DNA of 27,379 nt, taken from a virus. The stretch's first letter is position 1. Each line of letters begins with the position of its first letter. The notes beneath the pieces are model-generated. The model saw only the letters and a list, made by a program, of their open reading frames with translations. It did no database searches and had not been told where the DNA came from. Both the position numbers and the translations under genes were made by a program. The stretch spans positions 1 through 27,379 of the IMG/VR virus record IMGVR_UViG_3300033388_004037; one strand, 5' to 3'. Below, piece by piece: positions 2,268-19,879 of the stretch.

Positions 2268-4595
2268 TTATGAATAAGTTATATCCCCCAAAGTTCCAAG
2301 ATTCAGCCCGTATTCGCAATCAACTGGAAACGGCAACTGAGGAACCCACCCAAAATATTCTTTCAACGGCAAGGTCTCCATAATATTTTTCATTTCAGGA
2401 ATCCAAAAATCTCGTTCCCGCAAATCGACATAAGCAGTTAGTGAATCATGAGTCATTCCAAAAAACTTACACGCTAAAGGATTACCATGCTTTCTTCTAA
2501 ACTCAGAAAATGCCAAACAGGAAAGATCAGATAGGGTGGATTGAATCGGGGAATTGATTGCCTGTCTTTCAGCCTTCAACATAATGGAAAAGTTTTTAGA
2601 ATTGATTAAAGGTAAATGTCTGACCCTGCCCAACGGAGATTGAATGTACCCGTATTCATGGGCATGGGCTTTATATTGTTTATGGTAAGTTACCAGTTCA
2701 GGATACATTTCAAAAAATTGCTCCCGTTGAACTGTGGCTTCTTCGATAGAAATTTCTACCCCGAAAGTGTTACGTGCATATTCAACAAATCCTTCTGGGA
2801 AAATTCCGTAGATCAATCCGAAGTTTCCTGCCTTGCCCCCTTGCCTGATTGCCCCGATATCTTCATGCCCTTGTTCTTTCATTCTCAGGGCTTCAGCTAA
2901 AGTGTACCCATTCAACTCCGCACCTGTTTTCAAATGCATATCGATTCCATCATGATAGGCTTGAATCATTGTTGGTTCATTTGCTACGCAAGCGATTACC
3001 CGAAGTTCTCCCTGAGAGTAATCCCAATTCACAATGCAGTAGCCTTCAGGGGCAGGGTAGGCAAGTCTTAATTTCTTTGCCCACGCAGTATGCTTGGATA
3101 AGGTTTGCCAAGCAGGGTCTTTAAATGAGAGCCTTCCTGTGACTGTCCCAGAGTCATCACCAGTTCCCCCGTAATCCCCCCGATACAAAATTGCTGTGGG
3201 ATGAAGCAACCCATCTTCCCGAAGATGTTTCAGGAATCCAGTGATGTAAGTGCTTTCTGTTTTCTTAGCTGAATTCCATTCCTTATATATTTTTACAAAC
3301 TCAACTGCTTCAGGAACATCCTCAAACATTTTTAGATGATCGAATGCAGTGCTTGGTTGCTCCGTTTTTGCTGTCACCATTTTGGGTTCCAACTTCAACC
3401 CGTTAGGATGTACGAACATAAAATCTTTTATGATTGCTGATTTGGTCAGACTGAAATCTTCCCCATATTTATTCAGCAGTCTTCGGGGCATCAAAGCTTT
3501 TGCTTCGTTAGTCAGTCTCGACATTTCGGAAAAAAGCTCAACCTGCAATTCTGCAAACTTATCTATGTCTACATGAATGCCATTAAACTCCATATCTTCA
3601 AAAGCACGGGAAGCAGGATGGAGAAGGTGGGTATAAAATTTGGTCTGGGATTTGGATTCAGTTAGTTTTTTCAACATCTGATTTGCAACCCGTAAAGTCG
3701 CGTCCGTATCTCCCCCCGCATATTTCAGCAAAGGCTCATCAGGAACCAAATCCATTCTGTCTTTTTTGAATTCCAGATTAAAGGCATCATCGTACCCCCC
3801 CAATTCAGGAACATAAATTTTGGTGTGGGTGTTCAGCGAGTTGCTTCGATTTTCATCTAGCAGGGAACCCACCAGAGTTGTGTCCATTTTAAAATTGGTA
3901 CAAAGGATTCCCCACTTCATCCGAATCCAAAGCAGATCATATTTCAGGTTTGCCCCAATCAGAGAAATCCTGTCATCATTCAGCAACCAATTTATTTGAT
4001 CGAACAGCAGTGAATTCTTATTGGGTTGGTCATCTACTCCGCTGAATCGAATTAAATCAGAAAACCCTTCTTCCATTGTAAAAGAAATACTGACAATAAA
4101 TTTACTGGAATCAAAAGGATTAAGTCCCACGGTTTCCAAGTCCATAGAAACCCGAACACGTTTTTCTGTTTTGTTGTACTGGTCATTAATTTGGTAGGGT
4201 ATGTGATCAAAATCTTGACACCACTCGTATTGACCATAAACAGGTTCCAAACTTCCAGTGTCCAAAAATCTTTTAGTCAAAGAAATATCTGTTTGAAGTT
4301 TCACGTAGTTGGCGTAGTCGAAATCTTTGATATCAACATCAAATGTGACAAGGCAACAACCGTCACCAACAGCATGAATTTTCTCACGCATGGAAGTTAT
4401 GGTTCTGCCTTTGGGTAAATGTCCTGCCTGTTGAATTGCTTTTAGATTCTCCCCACCCATGCTAAGTAGCACATCATCGGAAGCTAATTGAGGAACGGCA
4501 CTACCAGAAGGGAAGGTGAAACCTTGACCCTTTTTAAGTACATCCAATTCTTTTATAAATTCTGGATGCTCAGACTGCGACCAAATTTTTAGCAC
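2268..4595 (-). CDS. Family A DNA polymerase with 3'-5' exonuclease
   Basis: Replicative phage polymerase of the Pol I family, 775 aa. After about 145 residues of unknown N-terminal sequence comes a proofreading domain: ExoI DLET (152-155), ExoII NLKYD (216-220), ExoIII YAGGDTDAT (292-300). Polymerase motifs follow: TGRLS (486-490), motif A DYSQGELR (525-532), motif B with R584, K588, F592 and Y596 in NFGLIYG, and motif C HDS (716-718). Asp525 and Asp717 are the metal ligands. Motif A carries Gly where Pol I has Ile709, and motif C has Ser where Glu883 is usual. No 5' nuclease domain is present. Start is GTG at 4595, inside the end of the preceding gene (GTGCTAA overlap), with no better ATG nearby. 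Confidence 0.97.
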   Translation of the reverse strand: MLKIWSQSEHPEFIKELDVLKKGQGFTFPSGSAVPQLASDDVLLSMGGENLKAIQQAGHLPKGRTITSMREKIHAVGDGCCLVTFDVDIKDFDYANYVKLQTDISLTKRFLDTGSLEPVYGQYEWCQDFDHIPYQINDQYNKTEKRVRVSMDLETVGLNPFDSSKFIVSISFTMEEGFSDLIRFSGVDDQPNKNSLLFDQINWLLNDDRISLIGANLKYDLLWIRMKWGILCTNFKMDTTLVGSLLDENRSNSLNTHTKIYVPELGGYDDAFNLEFKKDRMDLVPDEPLLKYAGGDTDATLRVANQMLKKLTESKSQTKFYTHLLHPASRAFEDMEFNGIHVDIDKFAELQVELFSEMSRLTNEAKALMPRRLLNKYGEDFSLTKSAIIKDFMFVHPNGLKLEPKMVTAKTEQPSTAFDHLKMFEDVPEAVEFVKIYKEWNSAKKTESTYITGFLKHLREDGLLHPTAILYRGDYGGTGDDSGTVTGRLSFKDPAWQTLSKHTAWAKKLRLAYPAPEGYCIVNWDYSQGELRVIACVANEPTMIQAYHDGIDMHLKTGAELNGYTLAEALRMKEQGHEDIGAIRQGGKAGNFGLIYGIFPEGFVEYARNTFGVEISIEEATVQREQFFEMYPELVTYHKQYKAHAHEYGYIQSPLGRVRHLPLINSKNFSIMLKAERQAINSPIQSTLSDLSCLAFSEFRRKHGNPLACKFFGMTHDSLTAYVDLRERDFWIPEMKNIMETLPLKEYFGWVPQLPFPVDCEYGLNLGTLGDITYS

Positions 4596-4960: not shown

Positions 4961-5120
4961 GAAACCCCCCAAAATGTTTTCCCATAGAAACCCCACCATG
5001 TTCTAGCGTGATTGACTTGGGGGTTGTACTGGTTACTAGAAGGACATTTTTGCTTCCCTTCAACCAAACCCCCGCATCAAATTTAAGTTTCTTGATGGGC
5101 ATTTTTGTGACCTTAGCCAT
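4941..5120 (-). CDS. Hypothetical basic small protein, 59 aa
   Basis: A short frame between two larger genes: MAKVTKMPIKKLKFDAGVWL ending GGFHEHKPS. It is basic at the N terminus and His/Gly rich at the C terminus. Its ATG shares bases with the stop of the 270-residue gene (TAATG), the usual coupling arrangement in this window, and it overlaps the next gene by 20 bases. It fills what would otherwise be the only gap in the polymerase operon. Function unknown. Confidence 0.75.
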   Translation of the reverse strand: MAKVTKMPIKKLKFDAGVWLKGSKNVLLVTSTTPKSITLEHGGVSMGKHFGGFHEHKPS

Positions 5121-5932
5121 TATACACTCAGACCCCTGATTTTGGTTTCATCAAACTTGGCAACTTCCCAAGTATCCAAACCTGCTTTCATCATTGCCAT
5201 GTATCTTTTCAGAGACAGAGTATTACCCATATCGAAGTGACCAGAAGCATAAACACCATTGTCATTCAATCCAAGGATATCACTGTCAGCAGATAATGCT
5301 GTGGTGTAGGGTTCCATCCGAACAGAACACTTATCACCTTTCAGTCGAACAGCAATTTTTGCAGTCCCACCTTTTTTCTGGGCAAGGAATACATACCTAG
5401 AATGTTCGTTGGTTGAGCGTACCGACTGATAGAAATGGGTAGCATCTTTTAACCACGGAGCAGTTACAACCCCTGTGGCTTCATCTTCAATTGATTTATG
5501 TTTCATTTCTACTTGGTCTTCCATCCCCGCATTTATAAGAGCAGAATCATTTGCGGTATCTTGATAATCCTCTAACTGAGCATCATCCATACCGTCAAAC
5601 ATTCCATCCATTAAAGTGTTTCCTGCTACTGTCATTCCAAGATGAAAGAAAACAGCAGCTTTAATAAGGTCTGCTTTTTTCTGTGAAGAAAATGTGGCAG
5701 GTAAAAGAGTTTTGATTTCTGCATCACCAATTTGGAAAGTGGATTCAGCACCATTAACATACAGGAAGTAATCTTTCTTTCCCTGTTTCAATATTGTTGT
5801 AGCAACAGTATTCACTAATTTATGAATAGTCTGGGTACTGATCTTAGTAAGTTCAGCACTCTTCAACGCTTTGAAAAGTGGCAAAGGAACCTTTGCATCA
5901 GTAATTTCTAATTCGGGTTTTTGAATTTGCAT
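5120..5932 (-). CDS. Hypothetical protein, 270 aa, first gene of the polymerase operon
   Basis: No family recognised. The protein is alpha/beta with an acidic central linker (about residues 105-150, DGMFDGMDDAQLEDYQD) that may separate two domains. The second part has strand-like repeats (SRYVFLAQKKGGTAKIAVRL). The ATG sits behind TTAACTAGGAGGTTAC, the strongest ribosome site class in the window, and a good promoter lies at 5955-5984, so it should be abundantly made. It heads an operon of this gene, two small genes and DNA polymerase, which suggests a replication-related role such as single-strand binding or processivity. No OB-fold signature is clear enough to claim that. Confidence 0.85.
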   Translation of the reverse strand: MQIQKPELEITDAKVPLPLFKALKSAELTKISTQTIHKLVNTVATTILKQGKKDYFLYVNGAESTFQIGDAEIKTLLPATFSSQKKADLIKAAVFFHLGMTVAGNTLMDGMFDGMDDAQLEDYQDTANDSALINAGMEDQVEMKHKSIEDEATGVVTAPWLKDATHFYQSVRSTNEHSRYVFLAQKKGGTAKIAVRLKGDKCSVRMEPYTTALSADSDILGLNDNGVYASGHFDMGNTLSLKRYMAMMKAGLDTWEVAKFDETKIRGLSV

Positions 5933-5989: not shown

Positions 5990-6688
5990 TTAATCATCCT
6001 TGTTTACTATCAAGCAACTATGCTTGGATGATACGGCAATATAAACTTGTGGTTTGTTTGTTGTGACCTTTCCCTGAATCCAATCTTCAGTTAGGTCAGT
6101 TCCAAAATTGTAGGTAGGATTTTTTCCCTTACCTTTTTTGGTTCCCCAAACATTCGAAAGTTTAGCTTTGCTTCCTTCAACTTTCTTGATTCCAAAATGT
6201 TTGTTCAGCCAATTAATTTGTTCAGAAGATTCCACTGCTTTCTTACAGTAATTTTCCCGCACTGTGGTAATCGCATCTTTGTCACCTGTCATAACTTTAG
6301 TCAGGGCAGCAAGGAACAATCCTGTTCTACCATGTCCACCAATACACCCCACAAAAACTTTCTTCCCTGCCTTCATCTGCTTAGCAGTGTAGGACAGGAG
6401 TTTTTTAAATTCAGTCAGGTCTTTGGGAACACTCATATCTACAATCTTGAAATAAATATCTACTCCCTTATTCCAAGGATAAGACCTAGCACCTTTTTTG
6501 CCTGAACCATCCAGAGCAATGAAAACATCAACATCAGGATATTCACTTGTACAGGAACCCCCAATGATTTCCAGATCACCAATTTTATAAACAGGGTGCG
6601 TAGTCCAACAAGAAACATAAGAACTTTTCTTGGACTTAGAGTTAGATTTCTTTCCTGCCTTGCCCCACATGTCAGCTATATTAGACAT
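5990..6688 (-). CDS. Protein tyrosine / dual-specificity-type phosphatase 1
   Basis: Cysteine-based phosphatase of 232 aa. The signature VGCIGGHGRTG gives the CX5R loop with nucleophile Cys115 and phosphate-binding Arg121. Asp84 (VDMSVP) is a candidate general acid. The later VRENYCKKAVESSEQINWL matches the conserved helix of dual-specificity phosphatases. The first 25 residues are Ser/Lys rich and flexible; about 60 residues after the phosphatase fold are unassigned. The ATG is next to the stop of the 338-residue gene (TAAG-ATG) behind GGAAAATAAG. A paralogue lies at 7792-8322. Substrate could be a protein, RNA 5' phosphate or another phosphoester; the sequence does not decide. Confidence 0.9.
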   Translation of the reverse strand: MSNIADMWGKAGKKSNSKSKKSSYVSCWTTHPVYKIGDLEIIGGSCTSEYPDVDVFIALDGSGKKGARSYPWNKGVDIYFKIVDMSVPKDLTEFKKLLSYTAKQMKAGKKVFVGCIGGHGRTGLFLAALTKVMTGDKDAITTVRENYCKKAVESSEQINWLNKHFGIKKVEGSKAKLSNVWGTKKGKGKNPTYNFGTDLTEDWIQGKVTTNKPQVYIAVSSKHSCLIVNKDD

Positions 6689-6689
6689 C

Positions 6690-7706
6690 TTATTTTCCCG
6701 TCCTTTTTAGTGTGGGGATTTTCACTACCCCAAAATCAAGAATTCCGTGTGAATAAAAATCATCATTAAAAGTATCATCCTCAGATGCAGTGCTTTTCTT
6801 TTCAGTCACATCTTTTTTAAATGTTGCTTTCGATAATGCCCCTGCTTCATTAATCGTAGAAGGGGAAACGTAAGCAGCAAAACTTTCCCCCAAAACTTCA
6901 GTGGCAGCATCAACGTAAGCAGAAAACTCAGCGTTGAAATCAGTGGTAACACTGAAGTTAGGGCAATTAGTTTTGTATTCACCATGATGCTTAATCATAG
7001 CGGGGATTGCTCCACCCCTTTGCATATCAAGCAACTGAGTTAAACCATAACTATTCTGTTCGTGATGGTAAATTGTGTTCTTGTTGAATATTGAACCTGT
7101 GTTGTGAACCAAAGCCCACGCAATATCAACCATTGTGAAAGGGGAAATTTCGCCTTCCAGAACTTGAGTAATTTTTTGGCTAATGTTTTTCCATTTCTGC
7201 CCACCGTAAGAACCCATCCCCGCAAAACAATTAACAAACATCCAATCGCAATAACGGGAGAAATCAAGAAGGTCTCTATCACAAGAAAGGAATTCTTGTC
7301 TTGACCCTGAACGATTTTTCTTACCGTTTGTGACCTGACCGAAATTCTTAACATCACCACCATACTTACTTTGGATGGTTGCTGTCTTAGATGAGATTTT
7401 TCCGTGACGAGATTCGCCCACAGAAATTAAAAGAATGTATGTGAAGATACGAAAGAAAACTTCTTCCATATTTGCATGATGGATTTTAACTAGCTCTTCA
7501 ACTTCTTGGGGAAGCTCATTGTCTATCCCAAATTTAGATTCAACGACACCCATAACGTGAGCACCAAGATAGAACCTGATAATATCTTTTTCAGGTTGAA
7601 TCATGGAACCGTCATTAACGGAAATAAATTTTTCCATGCTCATCTTCTGCTTGTTATATTTACAAGCCTTGAACAGCATTGAATTTTTTACTTCTCTGAG
7701 AATCAT
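6690..7706 (-). CDS. Uncharacterised protein, 338 aa, partner of phosphatase 1
   Basis: I do not recognise the family. Conserved-looking segments are ISVGESRHGK (about 93-102), SYGGQKWKNISQKI, and MVDIAWALVHNTGSIFNKN with an HNTGS that resembles an active-site or nucleotide-binding turn. The C-terminal 60 residues are Ser/Thr/Asp rich and probably flexible. No transmembrane segment is clear. It starts behind TAACTAGGAGGTTCC and promoter 7733-7762 and is followed at once by phosphatase 1, so the pair is a two-gene operon lodged between the dikinase operon and the polymerase operon. It is a reasonable candidate for a substrate or partner of the phosphatase, which is inference. Confidence 0.85.
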   Translation of the reverse strand: MILREVKNSMLFKACKYNKQKMSMEKFISVNDGSMIQPEKDIIRFYLGAHVMGVVESKFGIDNELPQEVEELVKIHHANMEEVFFRIFTYILLISVGESRHGKISSKTATIQSKYGGDVKNFGQVTNGKKNRSGSRQEFLSCDRDLLDFSRYCDWMFVNCFAGMGSYGGQKWKNISQKITQVLEGEISPFTMVDIAWALVHNTGSIFNKNTIYHHEQNSYGLTQLLDMQRGGAIPAMIKHHGEYKTNCPNFSVTTDFNAEFSAYVDAATEVLGESFAAYVSPSTINEAGALSKATFKKDVTEKKSTASEDDTFNDDFYSHGILDFGVVKIPTLKRTGK

Positions 7707-7791: not shown

Positions 7792-8322
7792 TTAGTTGAC
7801 AACATCCAAGCAGTTGTGAATTCGAACACGAATAGCCAACATTTCTGTGGGGTCATACCTGCTTACAAAATCGCACTGCTCATCAGTTTCAACAGCAGTT
7901 GAAAGATATTCATCCCTCACGAAATTGATAGGGTAATGTATCATCCCCAGATTGGGGGAAGGGTCAGCACCTAAGAATTTCTTGATCTTGTACCACCAAG
8001 TTTTTTCTTCACGTTGCAGATTAAGAATGCCAATTGTTTTGATCAGCATAGCCATGAACATTCCTGTTCGACCAATGCCCCCCATGCACCCAATATAAAT
8101 TGCACCATCTTCACACAGGATTTTTAAAGCCTGATAAACAGCATCATCGACATCTGCATATCTGGGTACGCCAAAGTCAGGGACATCCACTCGGACATCA
8201 CAAGGAGCATCAATTTCTACTGCGAGTTTTACGCCTTTGATGCCCACGGGCTTTTCTCGGTAACGTCCTCCCATTACCGTGACTTTGCGACCTAACAATT
8301 TTGTTTCTATCATTCCATTCAT
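7792..8322 (-). CDS. Protein tyrosine / dual-specificity-type phosphatase 2
   Basis: Second CX5R phosphatase, 176 aa: IYIGCMGGIGRTGMF with Cys79 and Arg85, then VRDEYLSTAVETDEQCDFV, aligned to the same region of phosphatase 1. It lacks the Lys/Ser-rich N terminus of its paralogue but has an inserted basic segment (QREEKTWWYKIKKFLG) between the catalytic loop and that helix. ATG 8322 is preceded by AGGGGATAGAA and preferred to an upstream TTG. It overlaps the zinc protein before it by 113 bases in another frame, unusually long for this window. It is the last gene of the dikinase operon. Confidence 0.88.
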   Translation of the reverse strand: MNGMIETKLLGRKVTVMGGRYREKPVGIKGVKLAVEIDAPCDVRVDVPDFGVPRYADVDDAVYQALKILCEDGAIYIGCMGGIGRTGMFMAMLIKTIGILNLQREEKTWWYKIKKFLGADPSPNLGMIHYPINFVRDEYLSTAVETDEQCDFVSRYDPTEMLAIRVRIHNCLDVVN

Positions 8323-8695
8323 TTCTATCCCCTGCAATTTGCTTCCCCGTACAATTCGGACAAGCGATTAATTTAAAATCTAAACCCTCTTTACAATCTT
8401 TGCATCCTGTCCCATCACAAAAATTGCAGGGGTCTCCCACTTCAATTGTCTGTGAATCAAAACACACATCACATCTGAAGTTAAAATATCTTGCATACCT
8501 GTCTAAATGAAAAAGTGTGATTCCAACAATTTCCTTTTCACTTCGATTCACAATAACATTGTTGAATCTTATATTCCCTACTTTGTGATCACAGGGACTT
8601 CCATTCTTGATGTAAGAAACTACATCGGCATAACTATGTTCGTTGTACAGGGCTATTAAATCTTCCTTAGCACCTTTACTAAATTTGTGTAACAT
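8210..8695 (-). CDS. Cysteine-rich zinc-binding protein with DnaJ-like CxxC repeats, 161 aa
   Basis: The middle holds four CxxC pairs: CDVC (75-78), CNFC (90-93), CKDC (98-101) and CPNC (112-115), with CDGTGC resembling the CxxCxGxG repeats of DnaJ. That pattern normally binds two zinc ions. The first 70 residues are alpha/beta and unrecognised; the last 40 are Arg/Lys/Asn rich and lie entirely in the overlap with phosphatase 2, so that tail may be a by-product of the overlap. ATG 8695 is chosen over an adjacent GTG because AGGGTAGGTG lies before it. No J domain is present, so it is not a chaperone DnaJ. Confidence 0.82.
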   Translation of the reverse strand: MLHKFSKGAKEDLIALYNEHSYADVVSYIKNGSPCDHKVGNIRFNNVIVNRSEKEIVGITLFHLDRYARYFNFRCDVCFDSQTIEVGDPCNFCDGTGCKDCKEGLDFKLIACPNCTGKQIAGDRNEWNDRNKIVRSQSHGNGRTLPRKARGHQRRKTRSRN

Positions 8696-8987: not shown

Positions 8988-9416
8988 TCACTTCCCCCCA
9001 TACCATTTCTTTTTAACTACATTATGAGTAGCCCACAAGGAACCACCCAACCGTCCTTTTCGATCTTCCAAAGCAGTTATCAATCCTCTCTTACGCAAAA
9101 TAGAAAGATTGGTTGTTGCCTTGTCTACTGTGATACTCAGTTGCCTAGCAATTTGGTGGGAAGTTAATTCCCCCAGACCAACCAAACAACCTAAAATTTG
9201 TGAAAGCTGACTTCCCCTAACGGGGAGTACAACCGTACTTATTGTAACTGGAACTCTGGTAAGAGTTGTCCCGTCAATTTTAAGGTACAGAAACTTATTC
9301 AATCCGCAAACACAATGTTGCATAACTGAATCTTCTTCAAACTTAATCCAAGATAAGCCCCCACATTTAGGGCAGGGTAGTCCCATAAGAAAAGCTATCA
9401 GCAAAAAAAGTGTCAT
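8988..9416 (-). CDS. Zinc-ribbon winged-helix DNA-binding protein, 142 aa
   Basis: A probable transcription regulator. N-terminal CPKCGG with a later HCVCG forms a zinc ribbon (about residues 15-38). The second half, LGELTSHQIARQLSITVDKA then LSILRKRGLITALED and RLGGSLW, is a winged helix-turn-helix with recognition helix and wing of the MarR/ArsR kind. The start ATG has AGGGTAAACTC overlapping the dikinase stop. The first 12 residues are hydrophobic, so an internal start at MGLPCPKC is possible but has no ribosome site. As the second gene of the dikinase operon it may regulate that operon or switch phage gene classes. Confidence 0.78.
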   Translation of the reverse strand: MTLFLLIAFLMGLPCPKCGGLSWIKFEEDSVMQHCVCGLNKFLYLKIDGTTLTRVPVTISTVVLPVRGSQLSQILGCLVGLGELTSHQIARQLSITVDKATTNLSILRKRGLITALEDRKGRLGGSLWATHNVVKKKWYGGK

Positions 9417-9420
9417 GAGT

Positions 9421-11343
9421 TTACCCTATATGAATCCGTTTTTCGAGAAGACCCAATGCACTTTCCATTGCGACAACTCTTGAAGACAACCCAAGTTGCT
9501 CACTGATCTTTTCAAAAGTTTCAGCATCACCCATAACATTATCAATAAAATCTTTCTCAATGTAACCGATAAAATCAGGGTTCATAACATCTGCCATAGT
9601 CTTATATGCTTTGGCAACATTAGAAGTAACCCAAGTTCCAGAATCAAAAAATACATTTTCCAGATTGTAATCCCCAATGTGTGAATCCAGTTCACGGGCA
9701 TTTTCCATTCCTTCAGGATTAGGTTCACCCAGAAAGTCACTCACCTTATCCCTACGTTCAGGATTGATAAGAACAACTTTGTCAAAACGCTCAGCTAGGT
9801 CAATCAATTCTTCAGATGTAAGACCTTCAACTGGAACCCCAATTTTGTAAATGTAATCTTCAAGGCTCAAGGCTTCTTCATAGTTGTGAACCATAATCCA
9901 ATCTTCTTCGGTAATGGCAACTTCAAAAAGACTGCCCAAAAGTTCAACTGGAATGTTGGTATTAAATTCCAAATCGAAAGGCATTTCTGATAAGTAAACT
10001 TCACCAGTTTGACCATCGATCAAAACGTAAGAGAAAGTTCCAAAAGCAAAATCATCTTCCACATCAGGACAACCAACAACACAAGGTTTATTCATTCCCC
10101 TTGCGACAACAGCAGCGTGACAGGTAGCTGAACCTTTAAAGGTCAAAATACCTTCAGCTTTTTCCATTGCCTTAATATCATCTGGGGTAGTTTCTTCAGC
10201 AACAAGAATTGTTGGCTCAGCAGATTCCATAACTTCCTTCACAGAAAAAGCAGCCTTGCCTGTAGCAAAGTAACCACCAGAACCAATACCTTTAGCATTA
10301 GCTTTCTTTTTAAAATCAGCAGGGAGAACAGGAACCCTAAGTTTCATAAAAGTCCCTTCAGTAATTCTATCTCCCAACTCTTCAATAACTCCTTCCTCCA
10401 AAAGATCAAGAGCAATCTTGATTTCTGCATAGGAAGAACGCAATGGATTACGGGTTTGCAGAATTGACAGTACACCATCTTCAACAGTGAATTCAATTTC
10501 CTGCAAATCCTTGTTCTTCAGTTCAAGCCCTTCACCGATTTTAACCAGTTCATTATAAAGCTTGCTGTTCCACTTTTTCATTTCTGAAATCGGGGGAGCA
10601 GTAATCGCACCTGCAACAACATCTTCACCCTGACAATTGGTAAGGAAGTCTCCAAAGATTTCCTTTGCACCTGTGTTGGGGTTACGAGTAAACATAACTC
10701 CTGAACCAGAGTTGTCATTGTAGTTTCCAAAAACCATCGACTGAATGACAACAGCAGTTCCCATATCGTTAGGAATTTTGTTCATCTTTCTATAGTGAAC
10801 ACAACGCTCATTATCAAAAGAATCCCAAACTGCTTGGATTGAATTTCTGATGATATCCTTTACTTCAGGAATATGCTTTTTGATGGTCTTCATCCATTTA
10901 ACAGGGTCTTCAATTTTGCCCTTATGCTCCATAACAACATCAGCATACATTTCAACAAACCGTCTACGACAATCCGCTTTAAGTTCTTTGTGTAAATCCT
11001 TGTCATGATATCCTGCCCCAACATTCAGAAGGGTATCCATCATTCCTGCCATAGAGACAGGAGCACCAGAACGAACAGATAAAAGTTTGTGATTTGTTTC
11101 AGGATAAATGTGAGTTTCCAAAGCTTCCATAACTGCTTCAGTTACCTGATCAAGAAGCAGGGTTTTACCTGCATCCGTGTCGGCACGATATTGATTACAT
11201 ATAGCAGTAGGTATGACTAAGCCCGTGGGAACATTAATCCCACTTCGTTTCATTTCAATCAGGTTGTGACCCTTACCACCGTTTTTATTAACAGTAGAGT
11301 TGGTGTCAATTTGTCCTGATGTGAAAAGGTTAATTAAATTCAC
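9421..11343 (-). CDS. Truncated pyruvate phosphate dikinase-like phosphotransferase, 640 aa
   Basis: The protein follows PPDK for about 450 residues: the ATP-grasp start GGKGHNLIEMKRSGINVPTG (22-41), SVRSGAPVSMAGMMDTLLNV (89-108) with the ATP-contacting Arg91, MVFGNYNDNSGSGVMFTRNP (203-222), QGEDVVAG (238-245), IEFTVEDGVLSILQTRNP (283-300), and the phosphohistidine loop KGSATCHAAVVARGMNKPCV (403-422) with His409. PPDK of about 870 aa then has a PEP/pyruvate barrel; here there are only about 185 unrelated, acidic residues. It should still form phospho-His from ATP and phosphate, giving AMP and PPi, but the acceptor is unlikely to be pyruvate. GTG start behind AGGAGGTTGTAA, with promoter 11376-11404. 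Confidence 0.92.
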   Translation of the reverse strand: MNLINLFTSGQIDTNSTVNKNGGKGHNLIEMKRSGINVPTGLVIPTAICNQYRADTDAGKTLLLDQVTEAVMEALETHIYPETNHKLLSVRSGAPVSMAGMMDTLLNVGAGYHDKDLHKELKADCRRRFVEMYADVVMEHKGKIEDPVKWMKTIKKHIPEVKDIIRNSIQAVWDSFDNERCVHYRKMNKIPNDMGTAVVIQSMVFGNYNDNSGSGVMFTRNPNTGAKEIFGDFLTNCQGEDVVAGAITAPPISEMKKWNSKLYNELVKIGEGLELKNKDLQEIEFTVEDGVLSILQTRNPLRSSYAEIKIALDLLEEGVIEELGDRITEGTFMKLRVPVLPADFKKKANAKGIGSGGYFATGKAAFSVKEVMESAEPTILVAEETTPDDIKAMEKAEGILTFKGSATCHAAVVARGMNKPCVVGCPDVEDDFAFGTFSYVLIDGQTGEVYLSEMPFDLEFNTNIPVELLGSLFEVAITEEDWIMVHNYEEALSLEDYIYKIGVPVEGLTSEELIDLAERFDKVVLINPERRDKVSDFLGEPNPEGMENARELDSHIGDYNLENVFFDSGTWVTSNVAKAYKTMADVMNPDFIGYIEKDFIDNVMGDAETFEKISEQLGLSSRVVAMESALGLLEKRIHIG

Positions 11344-12705: not shown

Positions 12706-13197
12706 CTAGTTAAAAATATCGAATCTGATTCCTGCCTCTAAAAAAAGTTGTTTCGAAAGTTCAATATTAACATGGTGCTTTTCCATTTTCTCAGCCGAAG
12801 ATTGTAGAGTAACAACCCTGCCCAACTTTCTGCTGATGATACTCATTGTGCAATTGATGCAAGGGGGGTAAGTCACATACAAAGTTCTGCCCACCAAATC
12901 CTTAGTTGAATTGTCCATTGCATTTTGTTCCGCATGAATTATCAACTTGTGTTTCAGATCGTAATCGTTCAACCGTTCTTTCAGGTCTGCAATCCCCGCA
13001 GGAAATCCGTTGTATCCAATATCGATATCCCGTTTTCCATTTGCAATGACTGCCCCGACTCCTGTTCGTGGGTCTTTGCTCCACCCCGAAACATGAAGTG
13101 CTAAATTCATTAATCGCATATCCCAATGAAGACCAACTTCTTCTGCTCTAATATTGTTGGTATATTTCAGTGAAACACTCTTTCCAATTTTTACCAT
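12706..13197 (-). CDS. Deoxycytidylate (dCMP) deaminase
   Basis: Converts dCMP to dUMP, feeding dTMP synthesis. The zinc site is HAEQNA (His88, Glu90) and YPPCINCTMSII (Cys113, Cys116). Substrate-side residues DPRTGVGAVI and GYNGFP (61-66) are typical of the family. At 163 aa it is normal length for phage dCMP deaminases, though it lacks the second zinc-binding cluster seen in T4. Its ATG overlaps the stop of the 58-residue gene upstream (ATGGTAA). It shares the nucleotide-metabolism region with the dNMP kinase at 14472-15062; no thymidylate synthase was found in the window. Confidence 0.95.
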   Translation of the reverse strand: MVKIGKSVSLKYTNNIRAEEVGLHWDMRLMNLALHVSGWSKDPRTGVGAVIANGKRDIDIGYNGFPAGIADLKERLNDYDLKHKLIIHAEQNAMDNSTKDLVGRTLYVTYPPCINCTMSIISRKLGRVVTLQSSAEKMEKHHVNIELSKQLFLEAGIRFDIFN

Positions 13198-14471: not shown

Positions 14472-15062
14472 CTAATATTTGACCTTAGTATCAAATAACG
14501 CTCCTAGCTTGAACATTGTGGCTAATGCAGTTTCCAATCTGTTCCCCAAAATTTCTATCGTATTATCATTGGTAATTCTGTAGTCAATCAGATGTGCGGA
14601 AATTCCATTTTCTGAAGAATGGTGTTCTTCTTCTGCCCCCAGATTTGTTTCCTGTTGTCGAACACACTCGATCACCACCCCACCCCTTGCGTGAACCCAA
14701 TCAGCTTCGTTATCGAATCTGACATCAGTAATAAAAACCAATTGAATAGCAGGGGGAATACCCTGAATCTTAGAGTGCAACCACTTCACCCAAAAATCCT
14801 TGTCAATCATATCCCGTGCAAACTCGGTTCCAAGTTTTTGCAACATCTCCCTGTACGAAATTCCCCACTGCTCAGAAACCTCTTCTTTGTGTTCATAGAA
14901 CTTTCCGATAGGCTCCCGAAATATAGCAGCAGCAGAATGCTTCACCCCATCCCCAAAAGAAAATCTTTGCGCTAATGGGTGGTTAGGTCTTTTTAAATAC
15001 TCTTCCACCATCGTATCTTTTCCGCTTCCTGCTTTCCCACAAATTCCAATTATTTCTGCCAT
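14472..15062 (-). CDS. Deoxynucleoside monophosphate kinase (T4 gene 1 type)
   Basis: Phosphorylates dNMPs to dNDPs for phage DNA synthesis. P-loop GKAGSGKDT at residues 9-17; FITDVRFDNEADWVHARGGV is the highly characteristic mid-protein motif of this family, followed by a lid-like basic region (CVRQQETN) and EHHSSENG. 196 aa is near the usual 200-240. ATG overlaps the end of the membrane protein gene by 13 bases and has AGGGG upstream. The last seven codons (FDTKVKY) are encoded by boundary motif copy 5, so the motif is both coding and upstream of the next promoter. Confidence 0.93.
   Translation of the reverse strand: MAEIIGICGKAGSGKDTMVEEYLKRPNHPLAQRFSFGDGVKHSAAAIFREPIGKFYEHKEEVSEQWGISYREMLQKLGTEFARDMIDKDFWVKWLHSKIQGIPPAIQLVFITDVRFDNEADWVHARGGVVIECVRQQETNLGAEEEHHSSENGISAHLIDYRITNDNTIEILGNRLETALATMFKLGALFDTKVKY
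14478..14495. repeat. Boundary motif copy 5, reverse orientation
   Basis: On the plus strand TTTGACCTTAGTATCAAA, i.e. the motif turned round relative to the other five copies. It overlaps the last codons of the dNMP kinase gene and lies upstream of promoter 14440-14468. Confidence 0.75.
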
Positions 15063-17321: not shown

Positions 17322-17852
17322 TTACGCAGCAAAGTCATAAAGTATTTTTTCAACTTTAGCATACAAGGCAGGATGTCCACCTTTCAAAGACTTCAACAGC
17401 AATTTGTTTTCCGCAACATAGACCTTTGCAAACTTCGGGTCATGTATAATTATGGTTGGAGTGTTGTGAGAAATATCAGCAAGCTTGATTGTCTTAACTT
17501 CATTCGGAGCTTTAGCCAAATGTGCAGCAATCAAAGCTTTCCTTTCTTTTCTGGTTGTGGCTTCAGGATATTCTTTGTTGCTCAACCACTCAACAAAAGT
17601 AGCAGCAACCATACCACCATGCTTTTCAACTTCACTCAGGGGGTGGTCAGTGTCTTCAAGAATGTCATGCATCATAGCAGCAGCTATCATGTCATAATCA
17701 AGCCCTACCGTGTCCCTTACAATCCTAGCAACTTCCATTGGGTGCTCAACGTAAGGCTCACCAGTATAATTTCTGGTCTGCCCATCGTGAGCCATTGTAA
17801 TGAACTCAATAACATTGTCGATGTCGTGAATAAATGTGTTTTCGTTTTTCAT
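17322..17852 (-). CDS. HD-domain hydrolase resembling small alarmone hydrolases, 176 aa
   Basis: Metal-dependent HD fold of the RelA/SpoT and MESH1 kind. GEPYVEHP gives His37, AMMHDILEDTD gives His62-Asp63 and Glu66-Asp67, and IKLADISHNT gives Asp126 and Asn130, equivalent to the KLADRxHN of SpoT. No synthetase domain. Family members remove the 3' pyrophosphate from (p)ppGpp or related nucleotides. The ATG at 17852 is at the predicted +1 of promoter 17859-17887, and no later ATG would keep the first helix (IDNVIEFITMAHDGQ), so translation must begin on a leaderless message. It is monocistronic, with its own promoter and terminator. Confidence 0.85.
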   Translation of the reverse strand: MKNENTFIHDIDNVIEFITMAHDGQTRNYTGEPYVEHPMEVARIVRDTVGLDYDMIAAAMMHDILEDTDHPLSEVEKHGGMVAATFVEWLSNKEYPEATTRKERKALIAAHLAKAPNEVKTIKLADISHNTPTIIIHDPKFAKVYVAENKLLLKSLKGGHPALYAKVEKILYDFAA

Positions 17853-17858
17853 ACTATA

Positions 17859-17887
17859 AGTATAGCCCCATCTATAATATTTGTCAA
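17859..17887 (-). promoter_or_regulatory. Sigma70-type promoter of the HD hydrolase gene
   Basis: Minus strand TTGACA at 17887-17882, optimal 17-base spacer, TATACT at 17864-17859. The predicted start 17852 is the A of the only plausible ATG. Confidence 0.88.
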
Positions 17888-17889
17888 CC

Positions 17890-18060
17890 CTAATATGTGA
17901 TAAATCCAAAGAAAAATAACCCTGCTGTACCGAACCAATAAACCCCCATAACCATCATAATTACAAATGGGTGCTTGCTGTAATCGACACGCTTAACCAT
18001 GTAGATGTGAATCCCGAACAGAATTATAACGGTCATCAGAATGTACAGTTTAATGTTCAT
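17890..18060 (-). CDS. Small membrane protein, 56 aa
   Basis: MNIKLYILMTVIILFGIHIY is one membrane helix and VMGVYWFGTAGLFFFGFITY the second, separated by a basic loop (VKRVDYSKH), so both ends probably face the periplasm. ATG overlaps the preceding stop (ATGA). Last gene of the CRP-site operon; its stop lies beside the -35 of the HD hydrolase promoter. Function unknown; no lysis gene neighbours support a holin call. Confidence 0.75.
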   Translation of the reverse strand: MNIKLYILMTVIILFGIHIYMVKRVDYSKHPFVIMMVMGVYWFGTAGLFFFGFITY

Positions 18061-18988: not shown

Positions 18989-19199
18989 TTTCTGATTCTC
19001 CTATTCCATTCATTTCATTGTCCAGTATCATTGATTCGATTTCTTCCCGAAGTAAATTCAATTCGATTCGTGTTTGGTTTATTGCAACAATAAACTGAGT
19101 GTGCCTTTTCACTTCATTTACTTTTTTGGTTTTCTCATAATGGTTTTTGAGTCCCACATGGTAGTTCAAAAGTTCTTCTAATTTTTCTTGTACGTCCAT
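18969..19199 (-). CDS. Coiled-coil hypothetical protein, 76 aa
   Basis: Charged heptad-like helices throughout (EKLEELLNYHVGLKNHYEKT, RIELNLLREEIESMILDNEM) and a Glu/Ser/Asn-rich tail (ESENESENK). TAATG overlap with the oxygenase gene. Probably an oligomerising helix bundle; no function can be assigned. Confidence 0.75.
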   Translation of the reverse strand: MDVQEKLEELLNYHVGLKNHYEKTKKVNEVKRHTQFIVAINQTRIELNLLREEIESMILDNEMNGIGESENESENK

Positions 19200-19879
19200 T
19201 ATCTTATCCAGTAGACAAGCGAATATCTTTCGCCTTTGGTTACAGGGTTTGCCCTATGAGCCGTGATAGGGTTCCCCGAAAATAGAAGGGCATGACCCTT
19301 CGGAATATTAATCTCCTGTTCTGGGTTTCGCACGAATGTCATACTGCCCCCTTCGTATTCATCATTCAAAGCCACTGAAACAGATAGCAGAGAACTCCCG
19401 TCATGATGCATCTCCATACTTCGATAGCCAACCTGAGTTGTGTACTTGATCAGAAAGCATTTTGAAACCTTGTCCACCCTGTAACCAAATAATCCCATGT
19501 ACAAAGAATTCAAAATATACAGGCAAATAAAATCTTCGTGATAACTGTTAATCCACGGATTCATTTTCTTTAACGGAATTTCAAATGCAGCATACCCATC
19601 TTTATTATCGAAACACCATTGGTCAGAATCGTTAGCTATCTTGATAAGCCAATCGCAGTATTCATATGAGAGCAGGGGAACCGAAAAAATGTAAGGTGCG
19701 GGTTCCTGTAGTCGTTGTAAAAGATTGCTTTGTTCATGAACCTGTCCCTCTTTGTTAAACACCCCCTTCCAATCTGCGTTCAATAATTCGGGGGTAGGTT
19801 TCCAATTCCAGACTTCAGGTTTCTCAGAAGGCAACCACCTGTCCACGGCATTAATTAAAGTTCCCCGAAATTTGCTCAC
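19199..19879 (-). CDS. 2-oxoglutarate/Fe(II)-dependent oxygenase, prolyl/lysyl hydroxylase-like, 226 aa
   Basis: The C-terminal double-stranded beta-helix carries the iron triad: HHD in MEMHHDGSSLLSVSVALN (His158, Asp160) and His208 in GNPITAHRANPV, followed by GERYSLVYW whose Arg218 would bind 2-oxoglutarate. FEGGSMTF-like EYEGGSMTFV between them is typical of prolyl-4-hydroxylase and PLOD relatives. About 65 N-terminal residues are unassigned. Substrate unknown; phage relatives have been proposed to modify proteins or nucleobases. GTG start overlapping the previous stop (TAGTG), supported by AGG upstream. Confidence 0.9.
   Translation of the reverse strand: MSKFRGTLINAVDRWLPSEKPEVWNWKPTPELLNADWKGVFNKEGQVHEQSNLLQRLQEPAPYIFSVPLLSYEYCDWLIKIANDSDQWCFDNKDGYAAFEIPLKKMNPWINSYHEDFICLYILNSLYMGLFGYRVDKVSKCFLIKYTTQVGYRSMEMHHDGSSLLSVSVALNDEYEGGSMTFVRNPEQEINIPKGHALLFSGNPITAHRANPVTKGERYSLVYWIR

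Follow-up and report, generated by a model that had tools for sequence, protein, structure and literature searches.

A phage protein derived from pyruvate, phosphate dikinase lacks the pyruvate barrel and belongs to a conserved cassette with Cys-dependent phosphatases

The DNA analyzed here, hereafter the window, is the whole 27,379-nucleotide stretch of a virus (IMG/VR record IMGVR_UViG_3300033388_004037), for which a near-identity search among annotated phages returned no match. Its minus strand encodes a protein derived from pyruvate, phosphate dikinase (PPDK), followed by genes for two phosphatases, two conserved proteins and a DNA polymerase. The dikinase gene is organized as follows:

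9421..11343, minus strand: barrel-less PPDK-derived protein of 640 aa with a GTG start, matching phrog_18609
10339..11343, minus strand: ATP-grasp (nucleotide-binding) domain, residues about 1-335, delimited from the PPDK alignment, invariant columns and AF2/VIA
9979..10338, minus strand: linker and phospho-His swivel domain (PF00391), residues 336-455, with T407 and H409
10117..10119, minus strand: codon of the catalytic His409, which aligns with the PPDK histidine and is an invariant column of the family
9424..9978, minus strand: C-terminal domain (the tail), residues 456-640, in the place of the PEP/pyruvate TIM barrel; positions 9421-9423 are the stop codon
9526..9606, minus strand: most conserved block of the tail, YKTMADVMNPDFIGYIEKDFIDNVMGD, residues 580-606, which links it to the tails of other clades

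A Pfam search of the 640-aa ORF detected PPDK_N (PF01326, E 2.9e-36) and PEP-utilizers (PF00391, residues 376-447, E 9.3e-24), and a PHROG search matched phrog_18609 over residues 16-458 (E 7e-135). In the alignment, K24, R91, E284, Q296, R298, T407 and H409 correspond to K22, R92, E323, Q335, R337, T453 and H455 of PPDK (C. symbiosum numbering), residues whose catalytic roles we take to be those known from the C. symbiosum enzyme. The PPDK metal ligand D321 is E282 in the window protein and D in most of the family. The swivel histidine lies within KGSATCHAAVVARG, T407 and H409 were invariant in 62 sequences, and the assignment of the phospho-His to position 409 in the preliminary description was thus correct. 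The AlphaFold2 model of the ATP-grasp domain had pLDDT values mostly above 90 and a VIA Z of 41.5 against 1kbl; 471 residues of the core model superposed on PPDK at 2.3 Å, and the K22A, R337A and T453A mutants of PPDK were among the structures matched. This superposition reached the linker helix that follows the swivel (residue 477 on PPDK 529) and went no further.

Past residue 455, the Pfam search gave nothing meaningful. The remaining 185 residues are acidic (39 D/E vs 14 K/R), contain both peptides quoted from them in the preliminary description, and open with the post-swivel linker helix (466-476). The same position in canonical PPDK is occupied by a 340-residue TIM barrel, aa 535-874 (PMC5371819). 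No PF02896 match was found in the window protein or in five relatives, and the protein scored 381.6 bits with TIGR01828, the PPDK equivalog, less than half of the 843.45 cut-off, and 361 bits with NF004531, the short PPDK model, against a cut-off of 456. Judged from sequence, these comparisons show that the ATP-grasp domain (the ATP half) and the swivel with its His409 (the phospho-carrier half) are intact and that the pyruvate half is gone. The claim that the tail, a domain of unrelated appearance, stands in place of the catalytic barrel was therefore upheld, and the replacement proved to be family-wide.

IMG/VR and GenBank phage records yielded 102 distinct complete ORFs, 560-780 aa long, with the shared core, a barrel-less count that includes two doubtful members: L169 (755 aa), which retains part of the PF02896 barrel, and L224, which branches with bacterial PPDK. 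The full-length counterparts were 17 proteins of about 875-966 aa. Named members of the barrel-less family are found in Stenotrophomonas phages DLP3 and DLP5, Vibrio phages SIO-2, Ares1, LV6 and KarBoss, Rhodobacter phage RcZahn and Rhizobium phage RHph_TM16. Those assigned to phrog_18609 (DLP3, DLP5, SIO-2, Ares1, LV6, J26, RcZahn and RHph_TM16) share the domain order and length class of the window protein, 32-46% identity in the core, and the same downstream cassette of phosphatase, p340 and family A polymerase, so that both the profile match and the conserved neighborhood expected of this family are present. The 780-aa dikinase of L224 (L224:6992-9334) has no PF02896 match and is followed 20 bp downstream by a phosphatase-like ORF, without p340, making it a possible intermediate.

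Two-component dikinases such as HpeHI and PpsAB carry their parts on separate proteins (PMC12167813), a precedent for regarding the tail as a mere linker ahead of a separately encoded barrel, and the preliminary description had named such a barrel gene beforehand as the observation that would count against its view. No PF02896 gene was detected in any of 24 whole phage records (about 80-118 kb), while all 14 control genomes were positive; as the window is a 27-kb fragment, this genome-wide search used the whole records of its relatives. This result, together with the predicted folding of the segment as a domain in a relative, leaves almost no probability to the linker explanation. The protein thus combines the ATP-grasp residues and swivel phospho-His of PPDK with the absence of a barrel from protein and genome, the combination seen in VadK, which is discussed below.

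The statement that the tail matches nothing holds for named families only: Pfam, PHROG and PDB sequence and profile searches yielded none above noise, whereas about 90 other phage proteins carry homologous tails. By profile comparison, the tails of the DLP5 and SIO-2 types are homologous to that of the RcZahn type (P 97-98%). The window-type tail is very divergent from those of the phrog_18609 phages and better conserved within its own clade, and joins the others through the 44-column block YKTMADVMNPDFIGYIEKDFIDNVMGD (hhalign P 91%, E 1e-6), which is near-identical in all five window-clade sequences. The tails of these five relatives are about 75% identical, with dN/dS of roughly 0.15-0.25 in the closest pairs, indicating purifying selection. 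Such conservation and the homologs elsewhere argue that the tail is no product of chance, and on these sequence comparisons we regard it as a genuine domain belonging to a phage-wide family. Among 299 genomes from one bacterial phylum, the tail was found in a single one, the center genome itself, at the end of a contig, where the phage cassette lies.

The structural comparison of the tail alone that had been suggested was carried out and gave no confident match, the 44-column profile link to other phage tails being its positive outcome. AlphaFold2 modeled the window protein's own tail poorly (pLDDT 36-76), and statements about its fold therefore rest on the relative L071, whose tail, predicted from a 72-row alignment, reached pLDDT 91 and consists of a few short strands with helices. 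Foldseek searches with the tail domain model against PDB and BFVD produced no match at E <= 0.001, the best viral rows being two unnamed proteins, A0A411BJN5 (399 aa, E 2.7e-3, prob 0.99) and A0A8F2DCL7 (685 aa). VIA-align returned mostly TIM barrels with a best Z of 6.5, including PPDK 5jvl (Z 5.4, rmsd 7.5), all in the range below 8 that the tool's own note treats as noise. As TIM barrels and PPDK itself appear in this list, none of them confidently, the predicted structure makes a shrunken barrel remnant possible. A barrel decayed but still recognizable by sequence was rejected: when seven tail clusters were compared with 17 real barrels by hhalign, P did not exceed 2%, and alignment with genuine PPDK barrels was confined to the first ~25 columns of the tail, the linker helix after the swivel.

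These results bear on how the family has been described. Phage papers name the gene PPDK (PMC9229204, PMC12038007, PMC5834331, PMC7326821), two of them (PMC9229204, PMC12038007) class it with the metabolic genes of glycolysis, and residues 524-691 of J26 ORF98 have been assigned to a four-strand PEP-binding TIM barrel into which PEP was docked (PMC12038007). On that account the protein would be a working PPDK, an auxiliary metabolic gene acting on PEP and pyruvate through a small C-terminal barrel, and the TIM barrels in the VIA-align list agree with it. However, neither the size of that region (168 residues, four strands) nor its sequence, in which hardly any polar residue is conserved across the family and PF02896 is not matched, sustains the barrel assignment, and no residues for PEP are conserved. 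With the few short strands of the relative's model, the absence of a Foldseek match at E <= 0.001, the noise-range VIA-align scores, the P <= 2% against real barrels, and the missed TIGR01828 cut-off, we consider a working PPDK very improbable, and the published metabolic-gene and PEP-binding barrel claims for these phage proteins not supported.

The conservation of the tail was compared with that of the core and of the neighboring gene products. In three well-sampled clades, mean pairwise identity of the tail was 0.21, 0.25 and 0.29. Its invariant polar residues numbered 0, 1 and 1 in these clades, all of which lie outside that of the window; misalignment may contribute in part to such low conservation. 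The corresponding numbers were 27, 41 and 35 for the ATP-grasp domain, 8, 11 and 8 for the swivel, 8, 13 and 10 for the phosphatase, and 18, 22 and 20 for p340. Several family members have tails cut to 132-170 residues, lacking the C-terminal half, and the tail is wholly absent from gp139 of Bacillus phage G (365 aa). In the window clade (five sequences), on the other hand, conservation of the tail equals that of the core (identity 0.75 vs 0.73 and 0.75, with similar dN), so the tail matters in that clade.

From the need of a phospho-His domain for an acceptor, the preliminary description had proposed that the tail holds the acceptor or specificity site. Extended to the family, the C-terminal domain would be the substrate-binding domain of a phage dikinase whose specificity varies from phage to phage. 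In favor of this, the domain sits where the substrate domain would be, its L071 version has a confidently predicted fold, purifying selection acts on it in the window clade, and a variable substrate would account for its fast divergence. The scarcity of invariant polar residues and the truncated tails argue against a shared catalytic acceptor site, as does the tailless gp139, and we find an acceptor domain unlikely for the family as a whole. The proposal finds no support across the three clades and stays alive in the window clade, where the sequence conservation would also fit a clade-specific binding role or a substrate site. Most likely the tail is a structural, dimerizing or docking module, and the handling of the substrate would more plausibly fall to co-encoded partner proteins.

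Downstream from the dikinase, the window carries the following genes:

7792..8337, minus strand: PTP1, Cys-dependent phosphatase (DSP/PTP type), motif GCMGGIGRTG, catalytic Cys84
6690..7706, minus strand: p340, an uncharacterized enzyme-like protein of 338 aa (phrog_20946)
5990..6688, minus strand: PTP2, a second phosphatase of the PTP1 fold, motif GCIGGHGRTG
5120..5932, minus strand: p280, a conserved cassette protein, found in 84/89 barrel-less loci
2268..4595, minus strand: family A DNA polymerase (PF00476, E 5e-56), which closes the cassette

PTP1 scored above the cut-off of the Pfam model Tc-R-P and matched PTP/DSP structures by profile (E 2e-15), and C84, R90 and D54 are invariant in the phosphatases. 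The name "thymidylate synthase" given to PHROG 17568, to which PTP1 and PTP2 belong, was discarded as a misnomer, its members here being Cys-phosphatases; the wrong name has been carried into GenBank for DLP3_141, SIO-2 VPEG_00063 and CAU_VPP01.

Linkage was counted in the 89 barrel-less loci for which 3.5 kb or more of downstream sequence was available, taking partners on the same strand at a distance of up to 5 kb. A DSP/PTP-type phosphatase was found downstream in 88 of these loci, with two phosphatases in 77; p340 was present in 86, and in 84 of those 86 it followed PTP1. Around the full-length PPDK genes, neither a phosphatase (0/17) nor p340 (0/17) was detected, 12 of these 17 loci having 3.5 kb downstream. 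The family A polymerase comes after the cassette in annotated relatives, and the window carries the whole set of PTP1, p340, PTP2, p280 and polymerase in the order seen in DLP3, RcZahn, SIO-2 and others. When the search was run outward from p340, the dikinase was found in 73 of 88 loci, and most of the others were contigs that end upstream of p340. True exceptions were divergent p340 proteins, accompanied by a phosphatase in L394 and L463-467 and alone in L393. Models of defense systems matched none of the five cassette proteins.

The p340 protein has the invariant motifs ExRH, GGxxW, D, HNxGxxFNK and LDxQxxG, with Y46, E98, R100, W172, D194, H201, N202, N208, K209, D227 and Q229 as invariant residues. 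Searches of Pfam and PDB gave no match above noise, and by its sequence it looks like an uncharacterized enzyme. None was found in Bacillus phage G, in a search run without a positive control.

Several observations were made on divergent p340 proteins and on the surroundings of the cassette. Two giant tandem p340 proteins (1217 and 1322 aa; L393:2174-9798) are encoded near a MraW gene on a Ca. Uhrbacteria contig, a p340 with a phosphatase was found in a Woesearchaeota MAG (L394:7855-10397), and another accompanies a 518-aa phosphatase on phage contigs (L465:6909-9844), near a uracil-DNA glycosylase fused to a family A DNA polymerase (L465:13476-15596). In the window, the dikinase gene is directly followed by one for a 142-aa protein (8988-9416, minus strand) whose start resembles a zinc ribbon and which gives weak winged-helix matches, and DLP3 has a "transcriptional repressor" at a similar place. 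Upstream of the dikinase, also on the minus strand (12706-13197, 14472-15062, 17322-17909 and 19199-19879), lies a nucleotide-metabolism set comprising a dCMP deaminase, a deoxynucleoside monophosphate kinase, an HD phosphohydrolase and a 2OG-Fe(II) oxygenase, which could hint at modified nucleotides.

Loss of the barrel is known in bacteria. VadK (Rv1127c) of Mycobacterium tuberculosis, a PPDK that lacks the pyruvate domain, phosphorylates itself on His422; it binds proteins and functions as a histidine kinase, with a partner encoded in its operon (PMC13400623). Together with the short actinobacterial PPDK-like proteins of NF004531, it shares with the window protein the PPDK ATP-grasp and swivel domains and the lost barrel. 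Canonical PPDK (1kbl, TIGR01828) has the same domains, catalytic residues and post-swivel linker helix, and differs in its PEP/pyruvate TIM barrel. HpeHI, CreHI, PpsAB and rifampin phosphotransferase likewise work as swivel-His dikinases, with acceptor modules that are different or separate; their ATP-grasp domain is on a separate protein or in a different domain order, whereas in the window protein ATP-grasp and swivel are fused in the order of PPDK. Barrel-less PPDK-like proteins of 539-570 aa are also encoded on Rhodococcus, Streptomyces and Aquabacterium plasmids (L488:2890-4548, L489:2830-4542, L490:2947-4593 and L491:2905-4524), annotated as "pyruvate, phosphate dikinase" or "PEP/pyruvate-binding", two of them adjoining a transcriptional regulator gene. 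Unlike the phage proteins, these four have 79-125 residues after the His and no comparable C-terminal domain, and no phosphatase/p340 cassette is annotated alongside the short bacterial PPDKs that we read.

In a tree of the shared core, the phage barrel-less set and full-length PPDK lie on either side of a single branch (SH-aLRT 97), a topology compatible with one barrel loss in the phages. In a second tree, the four plasmid-borne short PPDKs grouped with full-length PPDK; support for this set, which also takes in L224, was 100, in a tree that has some long branches and from which VadK itself is absent. Since the short bacterial proteins branch with full-length PPDK, the losses in bacteria and phages look independent from these sequences, and the two groups need not have a function in common.

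VadK, the sole studied barrel-less PPDK that we found, offers a model in which the phage protein is a regulatory histidine kinase that binds or phosphorylates host proteins, its cassette neighbors being merely co-transcribed; the autophosphorylation and protein contacts of VadK speak for it (PMC13400623). The linkage to phosphatase and p340 is, however, too constant for chance, and the short bacterial PPDKs branch apart from the phage clade, which makes such a host-directed kinase a rather improbable explanation. By analogy, the best reading of the phage dikinase is a PPDK-derived histidine kinase comparable to VadK, of apparently separate origin.

The near-constant company of phosphatases and p340 suggests that this dikinase is probably part of a phosphorylation relay, contrary to its annotation as an enzyme of carbon metabolism. 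In the proposed relay, the dikinase would autophosphorylate His409 from ATP, the phosphoryl group would pass from His409 to a partner, with p340 or a substrate that it holds as the likeliest recipient, and the Cys-phosphatases would provide reset or processing steps, with the C-terminal domain serving in the barrel's place as a structural, dimerizing or docking module rather than as a chemical acceptor site. In its favor, the tail is the fastest-changing part of the dikinase while p340 keeps 18-22 invariant polar residues in the same phages, and VadK and two-component dikinases such as HpeHI are precedents; against it, gene linkage is in itself no proof of phosphotransfer, and pairs of p340 and phosphatase are also encoded where there is no dikinase. 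We give roughly even credence to this scheme, in which the barrel-less PPDK hands its His409 phosphate to a partner, likeliest p340, the phosphatases reset the system and the tail is a scaffold or dock. More doubtful, and put forward tentatively, is the fuller proposal of a new relay operating beside the replicative polymerase, with a His charged from ATP, transfer to p340 or its ligand, Cys-phosphatases, and a tail that is a clade-specific dock or dimerizer.

The cassette is a more interesting object than the tail itself. The pyruvate half is missing across the family, and the gene belongs to a phosphotransfer and phosphatase cassette; what has been annotated as a metabolic gene becomes a testable phage phosphorylation system, with p340 named as the first candidate partner. 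A phage phospho-histidine relay through a barrel-less PPDK and p340, if true, has not been described before, and would represent a second, apparently independent, case in which PPDK lost its barrel and became a kinase, beside VadK.
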